50,620 nt of DNA, taken from Spirochaetales bacterium (lineage in GTDB: Bacteria > Spirochaetota > Spirochaetia > DSM-27196 > SLAA01). Each line of letters begins with the position of its first letter. The first letter of the stretch is position 1. Both the position numbers and the translations under genes were made by a program. The notes beneath the pieces were generated by a model. It saw only the letters and a list, made by a program, of their open reading frames with translations, was not told the DNA's origin and made no database searches. Shown here one piece after another: positions 7,536-30,618 of the stretch. Location of the stretch: contig SLAA01000229.1 of assembly GCA_007127105.1 (NCBI GenBank), forward strand, positions 1 to 50,620, given 5' to 3'.

Positions 7536-8481
7536 TTACGCCTCCCAAACCGCAGAAGACGACTTCAACCGGGTGCGCACTCGGGAGGTGTTTCAACGGC
7601 TATTCCACGCCCTGCGCCCTACAAGCCAACAACTGCTCTCCCTGAACGAGGTAAAGGAGGTGATTCGCCCAAAGGGTGAAACCTACCGAGGCATGGATGC
7701 GGTGAGGATCGACCGTATTGTAGGTAGCGAGGGCCGCTACCGTGACTTTAACAAGAGCTTCCTACCAAGACACGGATATCTACGCGGCCGCTGGACCAGT
7801 ATTGACCGAGCCCATTTGCTCGACGTGATTCTGCCTCCCGTGCGGCTCTACGAGATTGGTGGGGTCTATTTTGTTCGCGATGGGAATCACCGGGTTTCGG
7901 TTGCAAAGGCACAAGGGGTCTACTCCATAGATGCCGAGATCACGTCGCTGAATGCCGAAATATCAATAGATCCATCCATGACGCAGGAGGACCTGCGACG
8001 CAAGGTTGTTGAGTATGAGCGCAAGGAGTTTCTTAAGCGAACAAACCTGCATCAACTCATTCCGGAAGCCGATATCAGAGTCACCGAACCCGGGCGTTAC
8101 GAGGAGATAGAGCAGCACATCCTCGGCCACAAATACTTTATGAATCAAAACCTTGAGCGAGAAGTTCCATTCAGGAAGGCCTTGATCTCCTGGTACCACA
8201 ACGTCTACAGGCCAATTGCAACCCTCGTCCGCAGTGAAAAGCTGCTGTCACGCTTCCCAAAACGCACCGAAGGTGACCTCTACATGTGGATTGTCAAGTA
8301 CTGGCATGAACTCAAGCAAAAATACGGCCCCGAGTACAGCCTGCAAGAGGCAGCGTATGACTACACGAACCGCTTTGGGCGGCCCCGATTCCTCAGGCGC
8401 TTTGTCGCCTGGTTGAGCCTTGTCCCTCACAGGATCCTGGAGGGTGTGCGCGCGTACCTACCGAGACGAAAGAGACCGTAG
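7519..8481 (+). CDS. ParB-like (ParB/Srx fold) domain protein
   Basis: 'LPPVRLYEIGGVYFVRDGNHRVSVAKAQGVYSIDAEI' resembles the ParB-like DGNHR box. ORF track starts at TTG 7513; ATG 7519 preferred. Overlaps the preceding stop. Confidence 0.65.
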   Translation: MSHVSDYASQTAEDDFNRVRTREVFQRLFHALRPTSQQLLSLNEVKEVIRPKGETYRGMDAVRIDRIVGSEGRYRDFNKSFLPRHGYLRGRWTSIDRAHLLDVILPPVRLYEIGGVYFVRDGNHRVSVAKAQGVYSIDAEITSLNAEISIDPSMTQEDLRRKVVEYERKEFLKRTNLHQLIPEADIRVTEPGRYEEIEQHILGHKYFMNQNLEREVPFRKALISWYHNVYRPIATLVRSEKLLSRFPKRTEGDLYMWIVKYWHELKQKYGPEYSLQEAAYDYTNRFGRPRFLRRFVAWLSLVPHRILEGVRAYLPRRKRP

Positions 8482-9213
8482 CTCAGCGGCAGAGAAACGT
8501 ACCGGGCCAACAACCACACCGCGTTCGCGGTCTTCATCGTAGTAACTCAGGTAGAGGTCACGCCCGGGCAGCACATCGGCGGATACCGATATATTTCCCC
8601 CAGCCGCAAGTTCACCAGGCTCACGCACCTCACGCTCAAGCAAGGAACCCCCGGCCCGGTCAAATACGGCAACAGTCACTGGCGAAACCGGGCTTTCAAG
8701 GAGCAGCTGCTCATCCGCTATCACAAGGCGTGGTACCGGTAGCACAGGGCCTCGGTCAGGAGCAACAAAAAAAGCTGTCTCTGCCTCATCTCCACCAACA
8801 TCAACCACAATCACCCGATAGCGACCGGGAGTTATCCCCTCACCGGCTGGCGCTCTGAGTCGCTCGCTGCCAATCCAGTTGCCGTTGTCGTTGTGGTGAG
8901 TCCAGCTCTCGCGAGTCAGGCGCCAGTACAGTTCCCCTCCGTCATAGGCTATGTAGAGCTCTTCAATATCCTCAAAGCCGTCGCCATGCTGTACCAGGGC
9001 AAAAACCGACAGTTCTTCCGGCCCGGTTGCAAGCTCATTGTCTGTCGCCCGGATAATTACGCGGCTCTGAACCTGGAGAATTTGCGGTGTCTCGGCTGTA
9101 CAGGACAGCAAGATCAGGAGAGGCAGCAACAGTGACAGGCAGGCTTTCTTTGGCAAAAAAAAGGCCGCAGTCTTCCAGACGGAGACCGCGACCTGTTCTT
9201 CATTGGACTTCAT
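8458..9213 (-). CDS. Putative lipoprotein, function unknown (start uncertain: ATG 9213 or TTG 9156)
   Basis: Signal and lipobox 'ACLSLLLPLLILLSC|TAE'; beta-rich body. Overlaps the end of the convergent gene by 24 bp. Confidence 0.7.
   Translation of the reverse strand: MKSNEEQVAVSVWKTAAFFLPKKACLSLLLPLLILLSCTAETPQILQVQSRVIIRATDNELATGPEELSVFALVQHGDGFEDIEELYIAYDGGELYWRLTRESWTHHNDNGNWIGSERLRAPAGEGITPGRYRVIVVDVGGDEAETAFFVAPDRGPVLPVPRLVIADEQLLLESPVSPVTVAVFDRAGGSLLEREVREPGELAAGGNISVSADVLPGRDLYLSYYDEDRERGVVVGPVRFSAAELRSLSSR
9155..9193 (-). terminator. Intrinsic terminator downstream of rpsU, inside the following ORF
   Basis: On the minus strand: GGTCGCGGTCT-(9-nt loop)-AGACTGCGGCC, an 11-bp stem with two G-U pairs, followed by T8. 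Confidence 0.7.
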
Positions 9214-23080: not shown

Positions 23081-25339
23081 ATGGCCGTCGACGAAACTAC
23101 ATTCGGCAATACCAACGCCGACGAACTATCCGAGTCCGAGCTCGAGCAATACGGAGTCTGGGTGAAATCTGCCCCTGAAAATCTCGACGAGGACGGTGAT
23201 GACTCCTTGCAGCTCGAAGACTTCTCGGTCGACGAGCTTGAAGACTCTGCTAGAAGTTTCCTTGGCGAAGAAGAAGAAGAAGAGTCGCAACAGAGCTCTG
23301 CGTTTGACGAGGACGTTTTTGATGAAGTGCCGGTGTTCAGCGACGAGGAAGAAGACCTCTTGGCCGAGCTCGAGCGCTCCGGCCCGTCCGAGACCGAAGC
23401 CGGACTGGACACCGAGCTACCAGGCGACGACAGCTTTGAGTTTTCTGGCGGAAAGAGTTATGCTCTTGACATAGAGGACTCCGCTTCTGACCTGTCCCAA
23501 CCTGGACAGATTAGTGAGGAGTTCGGTGCCGAACAGGAAGGCTTTGACGATATTGAACAAGAGTTCAACGCGGTGGAGCCTGGGGAAGACTCCTTCAGTA
23601 TGGGAGAAGCACTTGGGGTACCGGGAGAACAAGATGAGTTTTCTGGCGGCGACTACCCGGATCTTGATGACTATCCCAATCTGGATTTGGACTCTACCTC
23701 ACTGCCAGATGACGAAGAAAGCGACGACTACGACGATATTCAGATAGATCTTGATCATGATTCAAGTATCCCTGAACTTGAACTTGATGAGCCCACCGAT
23801 CAAGGTGTGGCGGACCTTACGCCAGATGAGGAACAGCTTCTTCGTGACGCTGAAGACTCAGTTGAAGCAACCGAGAAGGATGATGAAATGGATCAAGCCG
23901 CCTATAGACTCCTGGAACAGATACAGGGGGAGATTGCCAGTATCAAAGAGGATCTTCACGAACTTCGTGAGGACGTAGCCGATATTCGTGCATCTCGTGC
24001 CATGGGAACCCCGGTGACTGCAGGAACCGCTACCGACGCAGAACCCAAAGTGCAGGGTTCGGAAGAAGGCTCAGGCTTGCTTGACCCCGGCTTCTTTGAA
24101 GAGGACGAAGACGAGACCATTGCCCTAACCGGCGATGAACTTGATAATATTCTTAATACCGCTGACTTTGTTGAGACTACGGGAGAGCCTACCCCGGTCG
24201 ACGACTCCCTTCACGAAAGCCCCGAAGCTGGCTTGGAACTTGACGAGATCGATCTTGAAGAAACGGATCTTGAGTCCGACTTTGATGTCTCGTTTGAGCA
24301 GGAAACACCGGAAAGCGCGGAAGTCCTGGATGAAGAGCTGCCCCAGGAAGACATCATTCCTATGGATCTCGAGGACAGCGACAGTGAAACGGTCGATTTT
24401 GATGTATCTGACCTTGATGACGACGACGAGATTACCATCGATCTTGCCGACAGTGACGAGCCGGAGACCGCAGCCATTGCGGATGACGAGCAGGACATTG
24501 AAATTGGCGACGACTTGGATCTTGGCGACCTGGAGTCTGAGCTTGACGAGCTTGAGAGCGAGGACATATCCCTTCCTGTTGAACCATCTGCGGAGGACAG
24601 TACCGAGGCACCCATTGAGGAGATCTCGATTGACGATGAGTTCGACATGATGGAAGAGGAGGCAGAGTCCGACGAGACTCCCGCCGGATTCCCTGGCGAT
24701 GATGAAGCGGCCCTGGAAGTTGAAACCCCTCCCACCGATACCTCCGAGATAGACACGCTTGCACAACTCGACATCGATTCCGAACTTGCCGATATAGAAG
24801 ACCTCAAGGACAGTCCGGATGACACCGTCGCCGACACGAGTGAAATTGACGATATCTCTATTGCATTTCCGGACGAAGACGAGAGCGAAACCCCTGCCGA
24901 AGATGTTGAAACCGGACTCGACATAGACGAGGACGAGTTCGAGATAGATGATGAGCTTGATCTCGAGGAAGACACCCTTGAGCTCGAAGAAGACGAGCTC
25001 GAAGAAGACGAGCTTGGAGAGGTTGAGGCTAGTGACGATGAGCTCGAGGAAGAGGAACTCGGGGATGTTGAAATCACGGACGATGAGCTCGAGGAAGACA
25101 CCGACACCGAGCCAGCCTTCACCGCTCACAGTCTGACAGATACCATGGCCGCCGCGCAGGAGGCAGCAGAGAACGATTCCGAACTCAGTGAGGATCTTCG
25201 TGAAGAAATCCGAGCCGTCCTCCGTTATATGGATCAACTGCTTGAGTCGCTCCCGGAGGACAAGATTCAGGAGTTTGCGTCTTCAGAACACTTTGAGGTG
25301 TACAAAAAACTCTTTGAAGAACTAGGACTGGAAACCTAA
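23081..25339 (+). CDS. Very large, extremely acidic protein with central coiled coil and conserved-looking C-terminal helical domain
   Basis: SD AGGAG before ATG; long Asp/Glu-rich repeats; coil 'MDQAAYRLLEQIQGEIASIKEDLHELREDVADIRA'; C-terminus 'REEIRAVLRYMDQLLESLPEDKIQEFASSEHFEVYKKLFEELG'. Confidence 0.9.
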   Translation: MAVDETTFGNTNADELSESELEQYGVWVKSAPENLDEDGDDSLQLEDFSVDELEDSARSFLGEEEEEESQQSSAFDEDVFDEVPVFSDEEEDLLAELERSGPSETEAGLDTELPGDDSFEFSGGKSYALDIEDSASDLSQPGQISEEFGAEQEGFDDIEQEFNAVEPGEDSFSMGEALGVPGEQDEFSGGDYPDLDDYPNLDLDSTSLPDDEESDDYDDIQIDLDHDSSIPELELDEPTDQGVADLTPDEEQLLRDAEDSVEATEKDDEMDQAAYRLLEQIQGEIASIKEDLHELREDVADIRASRAMGTPVTAGTATDAEPKVQGSEEGSGLLDPGFFEEDEDETIALTGDELDNILNTADFVETTGEPTPVDDSLHESPEAGLELDEIDLEETDLESDFDVSFEQETPESAEVLDEELPQEDIIPMDLEDSDSETVDFDVSDLDDDDEITIDLADSDEPETAAIADDEQDIEIGDDLDLGDLESELDELESEDISLPVEPSAEDSTEAPIEEISIDDEFDMMEEEAESDETPAGFPGDDEAALEVETPPTDTSEIDTLAQLDIDSELADIEDLKDSPDDTVADTSEIDDISIAFPDEDESETPAEDVETGLDIDEDEFEIDDELDLEEDTLELEEDELEEDELGEVEASDDELEEEELGDVEITDDELEEDTDTEPAFTAHSLTDTMAAAQEAAENDSELSEDLREEIRAVLRYMDQLLESLPEDKIQEFASSEHFEVYKKLFEELGLET

Positions 25340-26396
25340 TGGGGCTCTACCACAAAATTATTACCGAGGGTGGCGAGGTACAGGACTCTGATATTGTGCC
25401 TGCCACGATTGACGAAAAAAAAAACGGATCTTAACTGATCTCCTCTCGGACAAGGACAACGACCCGGACGGACCACAAGCACCGGAACTACGCAGATTTC
25501 TTCGAATAATCAGAGAAATGGGTATGGATCTACGTGCCCCGGTAGAGGTCTTCACCGCGGCCGCCGACTTACTTCGTGTCGCCAAAGGCGCTCTGTTGCT
25601 GAGAAGTCACGATGAAGATAGCTTTGTCGTCTGGGCCTATCGTGGGCTTGATGAGACCACACGCCACCGCCTTGAGTTTCCCCGACACAAACTTCCGGAG
25701 CTTGTGCACAATTTAGGATTGGCATCGGCGACCGACGACAAACAAAGAGCAGCCGCTATCGCCCCATATTTGTCAAACTTGGAGTCATCCATGCTTGGTT
25801 CGGCACTCCTCCTTGCGTTTCCGGAAACTGACCCACAGGCATTACTCCTTGTTCTTGACTCACCGTATCTCACGAGCACCAAAGCGCATGTGGGACTCCT
25901 CCTTGCTGCGGTGGGAGATCCTATAGTTGATGCTTTAGACAACTCGGCAGTACGGCACCTTCGAACAGGCTCCCGCCACCGGCAGCTGAACCGGCGTGGT
26001 TTTACCCAGATAGTTCTTCAGCACATTGAAGCAACCGCTACGGGGGGGCATCTCGTAGCTTTGGACCTGCAACCGGTGCTCGATCACCTGACCAAACAGC
26101 ATCCGGAAATGGATCAGTTTCGTGGCTTTCAGGATCTGTACACGCTTGTTTTGCGAACCCTTGGTGGTGAGTCTTTCGCACTCCGGGCGCCTGCCCAACG
26201 GATTTGGGTCTATGTTCCTGCCGGAACCTCCGAGGATATCGATCTGCTGCTTGCTCACCTTTCCGCTGTCATCCGCACAAAATTCACCCTTGACCCCGCG
26301 CTGAAAATACTCACTCATCAGGATGTAGAGTTGGACTCCACAGCCTTGCAGGCGCAGTCTCAACTCGACAGTATTCTGGCCGATGTTCAAGATTGA
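25339..26396 (+). CDS. GAF-like domain protein split into two frames at an A10 run (frameshifted or phase-variable; downstream ORF 25518-26396)
   Basis: ATG 25339 overlaps the preceding stop (TAATG). Frame 1 stops at 25432-25434; frame 0 is open from the A-run and reads KKRILTDLLSDKDNDPDGPQAPELRRFLRIIREMGMDLRAPVEVF... Confidence 0.65.
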
Positions 26397-28086
26397 GAGT
26401 TCGAAAAGCGGACTACCCTTTGCTATTTGCCATGGACGACACCTCCACTCCGCCTACGACCCGCAGCGAGAAGCGCGCAAGTTCGTTTCGACCCAGATTG
26501 GCGACCGAAATCCGGACACAGCCATTGTGGTCGGTGCTGGATTGGGATACATAGGCGCCGAACTACGGAGACGCGGGGTGTTCACCGTTCAGGTTTTCCT
26601 GTCTGCGTCCACCTACTCCGCCGCAACTGAGCGTGGAGATGTGGCATGGTGGCCTGAAGGCGACATACATAGAGAAGGAGCAACAGACTCCCCCACCGAC
26701 ACGCGCGAGGCGGTTCGGAACGACGCTTCCTTGCGCGCGTTCCTCCGTTCGGTATTAAGCGACACCGATGCGGCGGGACTGGAAGTCTTGTCCTGGACTC
26801 CGTGTATGGAGGCCTTCCCAGAGGAGGCAGAGAATGCCTTAGCCTCCGTTGCTGACGTGGTACGTGAAAGCAACGCAAATCTTACGACAATTTCAGCATT
26901 CGGCCCGCGTTGGTTCAGAAACATATGCGCCAATTTTCGTGACACCCAGGCCGTGCGCAGCTCTGCGAGCAGCTGCAGGCATGTAGTTATAGCGGCAGCT
27001 GGCCCCTCTCTGGAGGCTGCAATACCCGCTCTTCAGGAGCTGTATCACCTGAACGCGGAAATCTGGGCTGTCGGTACGGCGCTGCGGCCTCTTGCAGCTG
27101 CGGGTATTCAACCTAGCCTCGTCATAACCACTGATGCCGGGTATTACGCCCTGGAGCACCTAAACGCGGTCCGCGGATCCAGCGAGTTCTGTATCGCTGC
27201 GCCACTTAGCGCCGCTCGAGGCGTGACGCGACGCGGTTCCGGGCTCCTGCTCCTCAACCAGGGCTCTATTATAGAACGAGAGCTCTTTGAGAACTGTCGT
27301 CTTCCGGCGACTTTTTTGCCAGCCAATGGAACTGTGGCAGGGACCGCACTTGAACTCGCGCTACGCGTTAGTTCAGGTCATGTGGTTCTTGTAGGGCTGG
27401 ACCTTGGTTACCGTGATGTACAACCCCATGCGCGTCCACATAGTTTTGAGCATTATCTTGAGCGAAAGGAATCCCGGCTCCATCCGCTCTACGGCATGTT
27501 TGTGGCCCGCGCCTTGGAACACAGCTCCAGAGTATCGGATAGACGACGGACCACTCGTCAACTGGAAACTTACGCAGGCTGGTTTCGACGTCGAATTTCT
27601 CAACTGCGGCCTCGAGTGCTAACCCTCGGCCCCTCGGCATTGGAGCTGGGGGCTCCGCATATTACCCACGCCGAGCTCATGGCGCTGGCCAAGGAGCACA
27701 AGCTGGCGCCCACTGGCACCAACCAGACTCAAACACACGCCCCTCAGGACTCGACCGGTGCTTGGACAGCGAGCCTGACCGAGCATGAGCGCACCGTAGC
27801 GCTGTCGTCAATGCTTCACGCCCTGGAACTTCGACTGGAACGCGTGGCCGCTGTAACAACTCGGGAAGAGTTTCAGTCGCTGCTTCACCCCCAGCGCTTT
27901 CAAGCTTCGCAGGCAGGATCGGGGGCAAGCCCGGACGACCTGCAGCTACTCGCCTACCTAAACTGTCCTGGGGTTTTGAACTGCATTCGTCAGACCAGTC
28001 CAGCTGCTTTTCGCGAGGAGCTCTCCGACGCGGTGGAAACGGCACGCACGCTCCTCAATGAGCAGAAACGAGACCGGGCCTCATGA
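26383..28086 (+). CDS. DUF115 (MptE-like / Maf-like) protein, copy 1
   Basis: 'AIVVGAGLGYIGAELRRRG', 'VVIAAAGPSLEAAIPAL', 'PSLVITTDAGYYALEHL', 'NGTVAGTALELALRVSSGHVVLVGLDLGY'. Confidence 0.8.
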   Translation: MFKIESSKSGLPFAICHGRHLHSAYDPQREARKFVSTQIGDRNPDTAIVVGAGLGYIGAELRRRGVFTVQVFLSASTYSAATERGDVAWWPEGDIHREGATDSPTDTREAVRNDASLRAFLRSVLSDTDAAGLEVLSWTPCMEAFPEEAENALASVADVVRESNANLTTISAFGPRWFRNICANFRDTQAVRSSASSCRHVVIAAAGPSLEAAIPALQELYHLNAEIWAVGTALRPLAAAGIQPSLVITTDAGYYALEHLNAVRGSSEFCIAAPLSAARGVTRRGSGLLLLNQGSIIERELFENCRLPATFLPANGTVAGTALELALRVSSGHVVLVGLDLGYRDVQPHARPHSFEHYLERKESRLHPLYGMFVARALEHSSRVSDRRRTTRQLETYAGWFRRRISQLRPRVLTLGPSALELGAPHITHAELMALAKEHKLAPTGTNQTQTHAPQDSTGAWTASLTEHERTVALSSMLHALELRLERVAAVTTREEFQSLLHPQRFQASQAGSGASPDDLQLLAYLNCPGVLNCIRQTSPAAFREELSDAVETARTLLNEQKRDRAS

Positions 28087-29798
28087 CTGGATATGGGCGC
28101 CTTCTTGAGCTGAATCTACGGTCTCTGCGGGCTGCTGGCGGACAGCTGGGCCAGGAGACGGCGAAAAGGGTGGCGGCAAGCAAGGCGTCGCCACGGCTAC
28201 GGGTAGAAGCTTCGCGCAGCGGCGGAACAGAAGAGCCTACCGCTATTCTCACAGGGCCGAATGGCGAGCTATTTCTCCACTCTCGCTATAGGCCCCGAAG
28301 CGAGGCCGTTAAGTTTGCCGCTGGCCTTGAGGGGTGTGACTACCTGGTTCTTTTTGGCTTTGGCCTAGGATATGAGGCAGAGGCCATAATCCAGACCGCA
28401 CCACAGATGCAGCTGCGCATCATTGAACCAGACCCGAGCCTGTTGTACAGCGCATTCCTGGAACGCGACCTGAGCAAGCTGCTTGGGTTGGCTCAGGTCC
28501 GAATTATCTGTGAAGAGCAGGTGGATGAGGCGGTAGGAAGACTCGATTACTTGCCATTCTTTTTTCCTCGGTTCAGAAGCACTCATCTGCGCGCCCGGTT
28601 GACAGCAGATGATCAGTATTTCAGAGAATGTGCCGCACGGCTGGAGGTCTTGGTTGGGGCAGCAGGCGGCGACTATCGCGCATGTGCGAACTACGGACTG
28701 CGCTGGTGCATCAACACCATTCGAAATCTTACCTTGCTCGAACGTTCATATTCTCTTACTGAGTCCGTTCCAACGAAGAGATGGAACATTGTGGGGGCCG
28801 GACCAAGCGCGGATCGCACCATTGGAGACCTCGCAAGGGCGACCGACAGCTTCACGCTGTACTGCGACACCGCTGTACGTACCGCCGCCGCAGCTGGCAC
28901 TGAACGGCTGACCGCAGTCACGATAGACCCTCAGCCAATTTCTAAGCTTCATTATCTGGGAGTGATGCCGGAACAGGTGCACCTGGTTTCCGACATAGGG
29001 GCCCATCACAGCCTGCTCCAGAGCTTTCCGTACCTTTACTTCATCAGCTCCGGACATCCTCTTCACCGCTACCTCTCCTCGCGTGGGCTTCCGGTTGGCC
29101 CGACCTTGGTACAGGGCGGAAGCGTTTCAGAAACCGCCCTCCGGCTTGCGCACCATGCTGGCGCAGAAGAGATTGCAGTTCACGGACTGGATTTTGCCTA
29201 CCTGGCCGAGAGGAGTTATGTCGTGGGTAGTTGGCTTGAGTCTTACTTACGGAACAAAAGCGACCGACTCCACAGCATGAGCAACCAAAACTACTCCTTT
29301 ATTCGCCAGCGCAAGGCAGAGCGCCGCTCAACGGCACCCGAGGAACGAAGCGCAACTGGCGACCGACAGAACCCGCCCACCTACAACAGCAGCTTGCTCG
29401 ACGACTATCGAGCCGCGTTCTTCTCGGCCGCTACAGAACTAGGTTACCACTACCAACCTGGCGCATCATGGAGCTCAGCAGGTCTCCTTTCTACTGAACA
29501 CCCCGGTTCAAAACCATTCGGCACCACCACGGCCACCACCACCACAACAACAACTATGGCCCACGGGGTGAAGGATGTACTCCTGCGGCTTCGGCAGGAG
29601 CTACTGGAGCTACATCTGCCGACCACCGAGACGAGCTTTACTATGAGTTACCGATTCCTTGGTGATGCAGGCATGACACTTGTCCCGGCCGCGATTTATT
29701 TCCACGAACGACGAGGTTCGGATCGCTGCGAGGCTATGCGGCAGTCGTGTGAGCTGCTGCAAGACCAGATCTCCGAGCTTATCGACGCCGATACGTGA
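28083..29798 (+). CDS. DUF115 (MptE-like / Maf-like) protein, copy 2
   Basis: 'YLVLFGFGLGYEAEAII', 'WNIVGAGPSADRTIGDL', 'QGGSVSETALRLAHHAGAEEIAVHGLDFAY'. 4-bp overlap with copy 1. Confidence 0.8.
   Translation: MTGYGRLLELNLRSLRAAGGQLGQETAKRVAASKASPRLRVEASRSGGTEEPTAILTGPNGELFLHSRYRPRSEAVKFAAGLEGCDYLVLFGFGLGYEAEAIIQTAPQMQLRIIEPDPSLLYSAFLERDLSKLLGLAQVRIICEEQVDEAVGRLDYLPFFFPRFRSTHLRARLTADDQYFRECAARLEVLVGAAGGDYRACANYGLRWCINTIRNLTLLERSYSLTESVPTKRWNIVGAGPSADRTIGDLARATDSFTLYCDTAVRTAAAAGTERLTAVTIDPQPISKLHYLGVMPEQVHLVSDIGAHHSLLQSFPYLYFISSGHPLHRYLSSRGLPVGPTLVQGGSVSETALRLAHHAGAEEIAVHGLDFAYLAERSYVVGSWLESYLRNKSDRLHSMSNQNYSFIRQRKAERRSTAPEERSATGDRQNPPTYNSSLLDDYRAAFFSAATELGYHYQPGASWSSAGLLSTEHPGSKPFGTTTATTTTTTTMAHGVKDVLLRLRQELLELHLPTTETSFTMSYRFLGDAGMTLVPAAIYFHERRGSDRCEAMRQSCELLQDQISELIDADT
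29522..29560 (+). repeat. Trinucleotide-rich Thr-coding tract (ACC/ACA)
   Basis: ACCACCACGGCCACCACCACCACAACAACAACT encodes TTTATTTTTTT within DUF115 copy 2. Confidence 0.8.
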
Positions 29799-30618
29799 TG
29801 CCAGCGTAGCCAACAAAGGAGTCCGCTGGACGACAGTCGTAACTGGTGTGGTAGCCAACGAGTTCAGCGTCGTCACACCCAACGGCACAAGCATACGCAA
29901 CCGCAACCGCCGCAGCACCTGCCGAACAGGCTGAACGGTCACGTGGCCCGCACTCAATGACGCCATCAGCGTCAAGCTGCGCGAGTTTCTCTAGCATGGT
30001 GGCGTCGTTGGACTCTCGCACCCACGCATGTGCGTCATCTCCCAGGCCATGATTCGTGAAGCCGAAGGCAGGCCCGTAATGAGTGAGGTCGGTAGAGCCG
30101 ACTACTGTTATGTCGTTACCATCGTGTTGTAACTCGGCTTCAGCTAGAGCATTAGCAAGTCGGTGGACCAGCTCGGAATTTGGCCCAACGCGGAGCCAGA
30201 CAATGCGCAGCTCTGGATTAAGATAACTTAGCATTGGCATGATCACCTCAACTGAGTTCTCCGCGTCTTCATCTGGTACAGTGTCAAAGTTCTGCATGAT
30301 GTAGTCACGCAGCCGGTGATCGGTCTCGACGATTCCAACCGGCGTCTCGTACGCGTCCTCGCTGGCCATGACCAGGGGGGAGTTAGCTGAAAGATGCCCC
30401 CCAACGACTACTACGGTCCTGCTTCGTTCCAGGGTACTGAGAGTGTCAAACGCTAATCGACCGGAAAATGACCAGCCAGCGTGTGGCACGACCACCGCAC
30501 GCGACCGAGGTTTCTCAATATCCCGGCAGCACCAGTCGTGCAGCACCTGTTCTATTGCCTCTTCTGTCTCCGGATACCACCCTGTCGAGAGCTTACGTCG
30601 ACGAATTGTTTCGGCCAT
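29779..30618 (-). CDS. Memo family protein (AmmeMemoRadiSam system protein B-like)
   Basis: 'AVVVPHAGWSFSGRLAFDTLSTL', 'VVVGGHLSANSPLVMASEDAYETPVG', 'VVGSTDLTHYGPAFGF', 'CSAGAAAVAVAYA'. Confidence 0.88.
   Translation of the reverse strand: MAETIRRRKLSTGWYPETEEAIEQVLHDWCCRDIEKPRSRAVVVPHAGWSFSGRLAFDTLSTLERSRTVVVVGGHLSANSPLVMASEDAYETPVGIVETDHRLRDYIMQNFDTVPDEDAENSVEVIMPMLSYLNPELRIVWLRVGPNSELVHRLANALAEAELQHDGNDITVVGSTDLTHYGPAFGFTNHGLGDDAHAWVRESNDATMLEKLAQLDADGVIECGPRDRSACSAGAAAVAVAYACAVGCDDAELVGYHTSYDCRPADSFVGYAGITYRRR

Follow-up and report, generated by a model that had tools for sequence, protein, structure and literature searches.

A conserved A10 tract in a GAF and degenerate-GGDEF-like gene of the Spirochaetia as a probable site of programmed transcriptional slippage

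Slippage at chromosomal A tracts has usually been described in single genes, insertion sequences, and scattered lineages. In one published case, an A11 tract in tssM1 undergoes transcriptional slippage and yields two length variants of the protein; of tssM1 of Citrobacter rodentium and tssM3 of Yersinia pseudotuberculosis, one gene regains its long form through slippage and the other has its product cut short (PMC4256274). The dnaX gene of Thermus thermophilus carries an A9 tract, and E. coli dnaX uses the heptamer A_AAA_AAG (PMC3711429). Genes of the chlD type form a third group. When chlD cassettes were placed in E. coli, frameshifting reached 10%, 40%, and 63% for 7, 9, and 11 A, respectively (PMC3711429), and Spirochaeta thermophila is reported to have a frameshifted chlD (fs-chlD; PMC9227772). 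Here, we describe a probable tract of this kind that a single gene family keeps across much of a bacterial class.

The window, i.e., the whole stretch of 50,620 nucleotides analyzed here, is one entire contig (C207) of a 3.08-Mb, 264-contig assembly (genome G000) of a Spirochaetales bacterium. The features under study are listed in Table 1. Read directly in the window sequence, the run is exactly ten A long and, as the original prediction held, it splits a gene, lying between a 31-aa ORF that reads MGLYHKIITEGGEVQDSDIVPATIDEKKNGS and a -1 frame that remains open for the rest of the protein and reads ...KKKRILTDLLSDKD... The start of the short ORF is coupled to the stop of the upstream gene through a TAATG overlap (25337-25341), and its codons GAC GAA AAA AAA AAC contain an in-phase A_AAA_AAC heptamer; both features had also been correctly anticipated. 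The zero-frame N-terminus and the -1 frame body together make a long product of ~352 aa, reached by one extra A or by a -1 slip, and with an extra A in the mRNA the junction becomes DEKKKRIL... Two other homopolymers were seen in the window: a G7 run (26042-26048) in the body, across which the frame is open in the window and in relatives, and an A8 run (9155-9162) near the start of a minus-strand ORF (8458-9213), on whose strand it reads T8.

Table 1. Features of the split gene and its neighborhood, in window positions.
Feature	Position	Strand	Basis or remark
Upstream acidic gene, same operon	23081..25339	+	C-terminus ...YKKLFEELGLET conserved across the class; TAA overlaps the ATG of the split gene
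Zero-frame ORF, N-terminal segment MGLYHKIITEGGEVQDSDIVPATIDE-KK-N-GS-stop, short product	25339..25434	+	MGL(L/M/Y)xR/K homology
-1 frame body, GAF and degenerate GGDEF-like	25413..26396	+	AF2 model, profiles, fold search
A10 tract, putative slippage site	25415..25424	+	In-phase A_AAA_AAC; conserved tract
First DUF115/MptE-like gene	26383..28086	+	PF01973, E 1.5e-20; start overlaps body end by 14 nt
Second DUF115/MptE-like gene	28083..29798	+	PF01973, E 1.4e-15
Convergent Memo-like gene (context, outside the mechanism)	29779..30618	-	PF01875, E 2.6e-35

A search of 61 related genomes with the body sequence found orthologues in 44. The search was then widened to the order and to 398 genomes of the class, which retrieved 86 further loci, and all loci were classified by tract and frame. 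At 47 loci, from 46 genomes and 16 families of the class, the gene is out of frame at the A tract, and all of them require one added A (a -1 shift). Of these tracts, 43 are A10 and two are A12, with A9 and A11 occurring once each; the body is free of internal stops in every case. The other three genomes of the genus carry A10 with the same offset as the window (4/4 for the genus). The original prediction had named two ways in which it could fail, namely an A11 tract on re-checking or orthologues that begin at 25518 without the upstream segment; related assemblies have A10 rather than A11, and orthologues do carry the upstream MGL... segment. Three loci of family f7 (L010, L016, and L018) and one of f32 (L105) have N-termini without the MG start, yet they have A10 and need the added A. 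Across orthologues, the frame break lies 26-110 codons from the gene start. One assembly (G042) harbors two copies of the A10 gene, on contigs C147 and C195 (L146 and L013), possibly a duplicate or a mixture of strains. Outside the class, a phylum-wide search recovered only generic GAF/GGDEF proteins.

Aside from these 47 loci and nine in-frame loci that bear a tract of at least nine A, all orthologues are in frame and lack a run of A9 or longer. In these tract-free orthologues (f3, f8, f34, f42, f43, and others), an MGLM/L...R/K N-terminus is continuous with the body in one frame. Because they are single ORFs, the two halves make up a single protein, and only the tract-bearing lineages have the break; we read the full-length fusion as the normal form of the family. 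The nine in-frame loci with a tract, which ranges from A9 to A12, come from genome G032 (L141) and from families f13 (L099 and L134), f30 (L097, L115, L116, and L120), and f19 (L108 and L113). The G032 tract is an A11, the only run of at least ten A in that assembly, and the tract seems to be selected even there, where the unslipped frame is the long one. At in-frame loci, slippage would have the opposite effect and leave a shortened protein rather than a completed one. Some of the in-frame tracts of f19 and f30, whose genomes are AT-rich, may be due to chance.

In the window, the A10 is the sole run of nine or more A or T, and a first-order Markov model predicts ~0.045 runs of at least A10 or T10 for a sequence of this length. 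The entire 3.08-Mb assembly holds two exact A10 runs. When 47 genomes were scanned for runs of at least ten A on either strand, a single such run, the tract of the split gene, was present in 11 (G004, G005, G006, G018, G029, G032, G037, G041, G044, G060, and G061; 2.1-4.5 Mb), where the counts are pattern searches of incomplete assemblies and "single" or "only" refers to the assembly. A demand for lysine does not account for the uninterrupted run, since AAA makes up 57% of the Lys codons that follow the tract in the bodies, compared with 39% for a set of genes from the window, and tract-free families have no KKK at the tract position. We therefore do not attribute to chance an A10 tract that recurs in GC-rich genomes where such runs are very rare.

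The conservation of this run at one position in relatives across the whole class makes it very probable that slippage of either the polymerase or the ribosome at A10 is put to deliberate use, with a single gene yielding both a short and a long protein. We propose that the tract is probably a programmed transcriptional slippage site within a GAF and degenerate-GGDEF gene that precedes two DUF115 genes. While copying A10, RNA polymerase would most likely insert one more A into some of the transcripts. Transcripts with ten A would give rise to the short N-terminal peptide (31 aa in the window), terminated soon after the tract, and those with eleven would be read into the -1 frame to give the full-length GAF and degenerate GGDEF-like protein. 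One gene would thereby have two products, at a ratio set by tract length. From the comparative pattern we infer that slippage takes place in vivo, that it is mainly the work of RNA polymerase, in what ratio the products arise, and how DUF115 expression is affected, as considered below.

Four observations favor the polymerase: the length of the tract, its varying codon phase at fixed length, the lack of stimulatory elements, and the orthologues that keep the tract in frame. The tract occurs in all three codon phases, with at least 11 switches of phase along a quick maximum-likelihood tree whose deep branches are weakly supported, while length and offset stay fixed. It is also kept at 9-12 A although an in-phase A_AAA_AAN needs only six. 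Folding of three windows behind the 47 tracts, each against 100 dinucleotide shuffles, gave mean z-scores of -0.2 to -0.4, with no downstream stem-loop signal; for the three windows at the locus itself, z was -0.1, +1.4, and +1.3. Upstream SD-like motifs were found at 10 of the 47 tracts against a background of 21%, i.e., without excess, and the locus in G000 has none. Finally, retention of the tract in in-frame orthologues is expected if slipping itself is the function, as in tssM1/tssM3, and it would agree with selection favoring a pair of products whether the gene starts in or out of frame. These features agree with those by which genes of transcriptional realignment are recognized, namely an A tract of at least about eight at the junction of two overlapping frames (A10 here; A9-A12 among the 47) and conservation of tract and offset beyond what chance would leave (16 families; A10 in 43/47).

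The main alternative is programmed -1 ribosomal frameshifting, in which the ribosome slips one base back on an in-phase A_AAA_AAN, as it does in E. coli dnaX. An in-phase heptamer is present in 47/47 out-of-frame orthologues (A_AAA_AAG in 22, A_AAA_AAA in 17, A_AAA_AAC in 7, and A_AAA_AAT in one), and the first of these is the very heptamer of E. coli dnaX (PMC3711429). The offset, moreover, is -1 in every out-of-frame orthologue, a counterpoint to polymerase slippage in that a conserved direction has been taken as a hint of ribosomal frameshifting (PMC3711429). Every A10 also holds an in-phase A_AAA_AA(G/A/C) heptamer in whichever phase it lies, so that sequence alone is compatible with the ribosome too. 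Against this, neither the downstream stem-loop nor the upstream SD-like element is enriched; the tract measures 9-12 A and never the 6-8 that would be enough for a heptamer; and its length does not change across codon phases. We consider frameshifting by the ribosome as the principal mechanism rather unlikely, and both machines could act at the same tract. The original prediction had offered ribosome slippage, polymerase slippage, or a phase-variable tract: slippage with a -1 outcome is strongly supported by the class-wide tract, its length, and its offset, and phase variation is not supported.

With polymerase slippage as the preferred reading, the tssM genes are among the closest known systems. 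In tssM1/tssM3, as at the spirochaete tract, an A run stands with neither an SD nor a structure nearby, and the restoration of one product and truncation of the other parallel what is predicted for out-of-frame and in-frame spirochaete orthologues, respectively. The tssM genes, however, belong to another protein family and are only two, whereas the putative spirochaete slippage tract is found in at least 16 families. The dnaX genes with A9/A10, namely that of T. thermophilus and those of the two-ORF type (PMC3711429), make two products, as proposed for the spirochaete gene, and those of the two-ORF type share the -1 offset; they encode a replication protein that is split near its middle, in contrast to a GAF/GGDEF-like protein broken close to its start. 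The chlD/cobaltochelatase frameshift genes (PMC3711429, PMC9227772) likewise combine an A-rich site with a -1 shift, but they are a different gene, and their sites are described with downstream RNA structures that are not seen at the spirochaete tract.

Phase variation, internal re-initiation, and sequencing error or gene decay are rejected or nearly so on the grounds of fixed offset, missing ATGs, replication, and an intact body. Strain-level phase variation, by which replication slippage would toggle the DNA tract between on and off lengths, is very unlikely. Homopolymer tracts can vary, and family f13 is mixed, having in-frame members (A10, A11) alongside out-of-frame ones (A10). A length-variable switch, though, should leave genes in either frame state side by side, yet all four genomes of the genus are A10 and out of frame, and in f1, f4, f5, f7, f21, f23, and f35 every tract-bearing member recovered is out of frame and needs one added A, with no on state. 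Phase-variation switches usually reside in genes of the surface-antigen type, and the split gene is not of that type.

That the locus is two genes, with the short ORF simply ending and the body re-initiating at a start of its own such as ATG 25518, is more improbable still. An in-frame ATG does lie 31-33 codons past the tract in the window and two sister genomes, but ATG 25518 is not conserved among orthologues: in 37 of the 47, no ATG occurs in the body frame over the first 45 codons past the tract, 14 lack any ATG, GTG, or TTG, and an SD-like element is present in only two. Tract-free orthologues are single ORFs, and two separate genes would leave the A10 without a reason. A sequencing or assembly error, or a decaying pseudogene, is scarcely credible even for error-prone homopolymers in a fragmented assembly of 264 contigs, given that both segments are conserved with an intact, stop-free body in all out-of-frame orthologues and that replication of tract, length, and offset in 46 separately assembled genomes in practice excludes a single-genome error.

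The protein was originally predicted to be GAF-like. The window protein on its own has no Pfam match, but the assignment holds at the level of the family and the fold: 5-7 of 92 orthologues match each of GAF, GAF_2, and GAF_3, a modest rate, and an AF2 model of the body built with the 92 orthologues (pLDDT 91.1, pTM 0.88) matches the GAF domain 3ci6_B at TMt 0.60 (Foldseek). Together, profiles and model suggest that a GGDEF-like domain comes after the GAF domain. A GGDEF diguanylate cyclase has the fold with an intact GG(D/E)EF motif; the C-terminal domain resembles it in profile and fold only, and we call it degenerate because the aligned domain shows no GGDEF signature. The best Foldseek matches of the body (E 8.6e-6) are PelD, a c-di-GMP receptor with a GAF and a degenerate GGDEF domain, and GAF-GGDEF diguanylate cyclases, which are also its weak profile matches and have the same domain order. 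TM-scores to these proteins are nevertheless low (~0.3) because domain packing differs, and the body is set apart from them by its missing GGDEF signature.

The order acidic gene, split gene, and two DUF115-type genes is syntenic across the class (window 23081-30618; 20 loci, L292-L311). The C-terminal 130 aa of the acidic gene lie directly upstream in 20/20 class genomes sampled, two DUF115-type genes lie directly downstream in 20/20, and the Memo-like gene occupies the same place in most. In L304, L308, and L309, the body had no match at the sensitivity of the context search, and a more sensitive profile search placed the gene there. The acidic gene of the window contains tandem repeats (15 and 45 nt, GAGCTCGAAGAAGAC type; 24980-25099), and its long antisense ORFs look like a by-product of its composition.

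Both downstream genes had been predicted as DUF115, and both match PF01973 (MptE-like), which we take to be the former DUF115. In 31 of the 47 orthologues, the start of the first overlaps the body stop or lies within 5 nt of it. In the window, unslipped transcripts would present ~950 nt of untranslated sequence ahead of DUF115, and because the body end overlaps the DUF115 start, translation of the DUF115 pair is probably also governed by how many of the transcripts have slipped; this is our guess at what the coupling does. Taken as a whole, the wider proposal is of a class-wide, ancient, and chromosomally fixed RNA-polymerase slippage site in a gene of signalling type, usable from either frame, whose products would be a short peptide with only the motif and a full-length GAF/GGDEF-like regulator and which would set the output of the DUF115 operon; our confidence in this combination is evenly balanced. 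Searches of the open-access literature on the split gene, on slippage in spirochaetes, and on spirochaete DUF115 found no report of this case. One family that keeps A10 across at least 16 bacterial families is a natural test of two questions: why error-prone tracts persist, and whether slippage by RNA polymerase can serve as a fixed means of regulation. In practical terms, annotation pipelines can be expected to label the gene as broken or to place its start too far downstream.

Finally, the other exact A10 of the window's genome (C92:7847-7858; 1502-1511 in locus L159) splits a chlD/cobaltochelatase-type gene, also with a -1 offset. Against TIGR02442 (putative cobaltochelatase), its zero frame aligns with positions 1-358 and its -1 frame with positions 418-641. 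Both A10 runs of this genome thus lie at -1 frame junctions. The chlD-type A10 is conserved in all three sister genomes (L160, L161, and L172), and a gene of this type in G020, of family f7, also carries an A10 (L149). As the only other conserved A10 in the genus belongs to a recoded chlD, a search for A10 may find recoded genes in these genomes.
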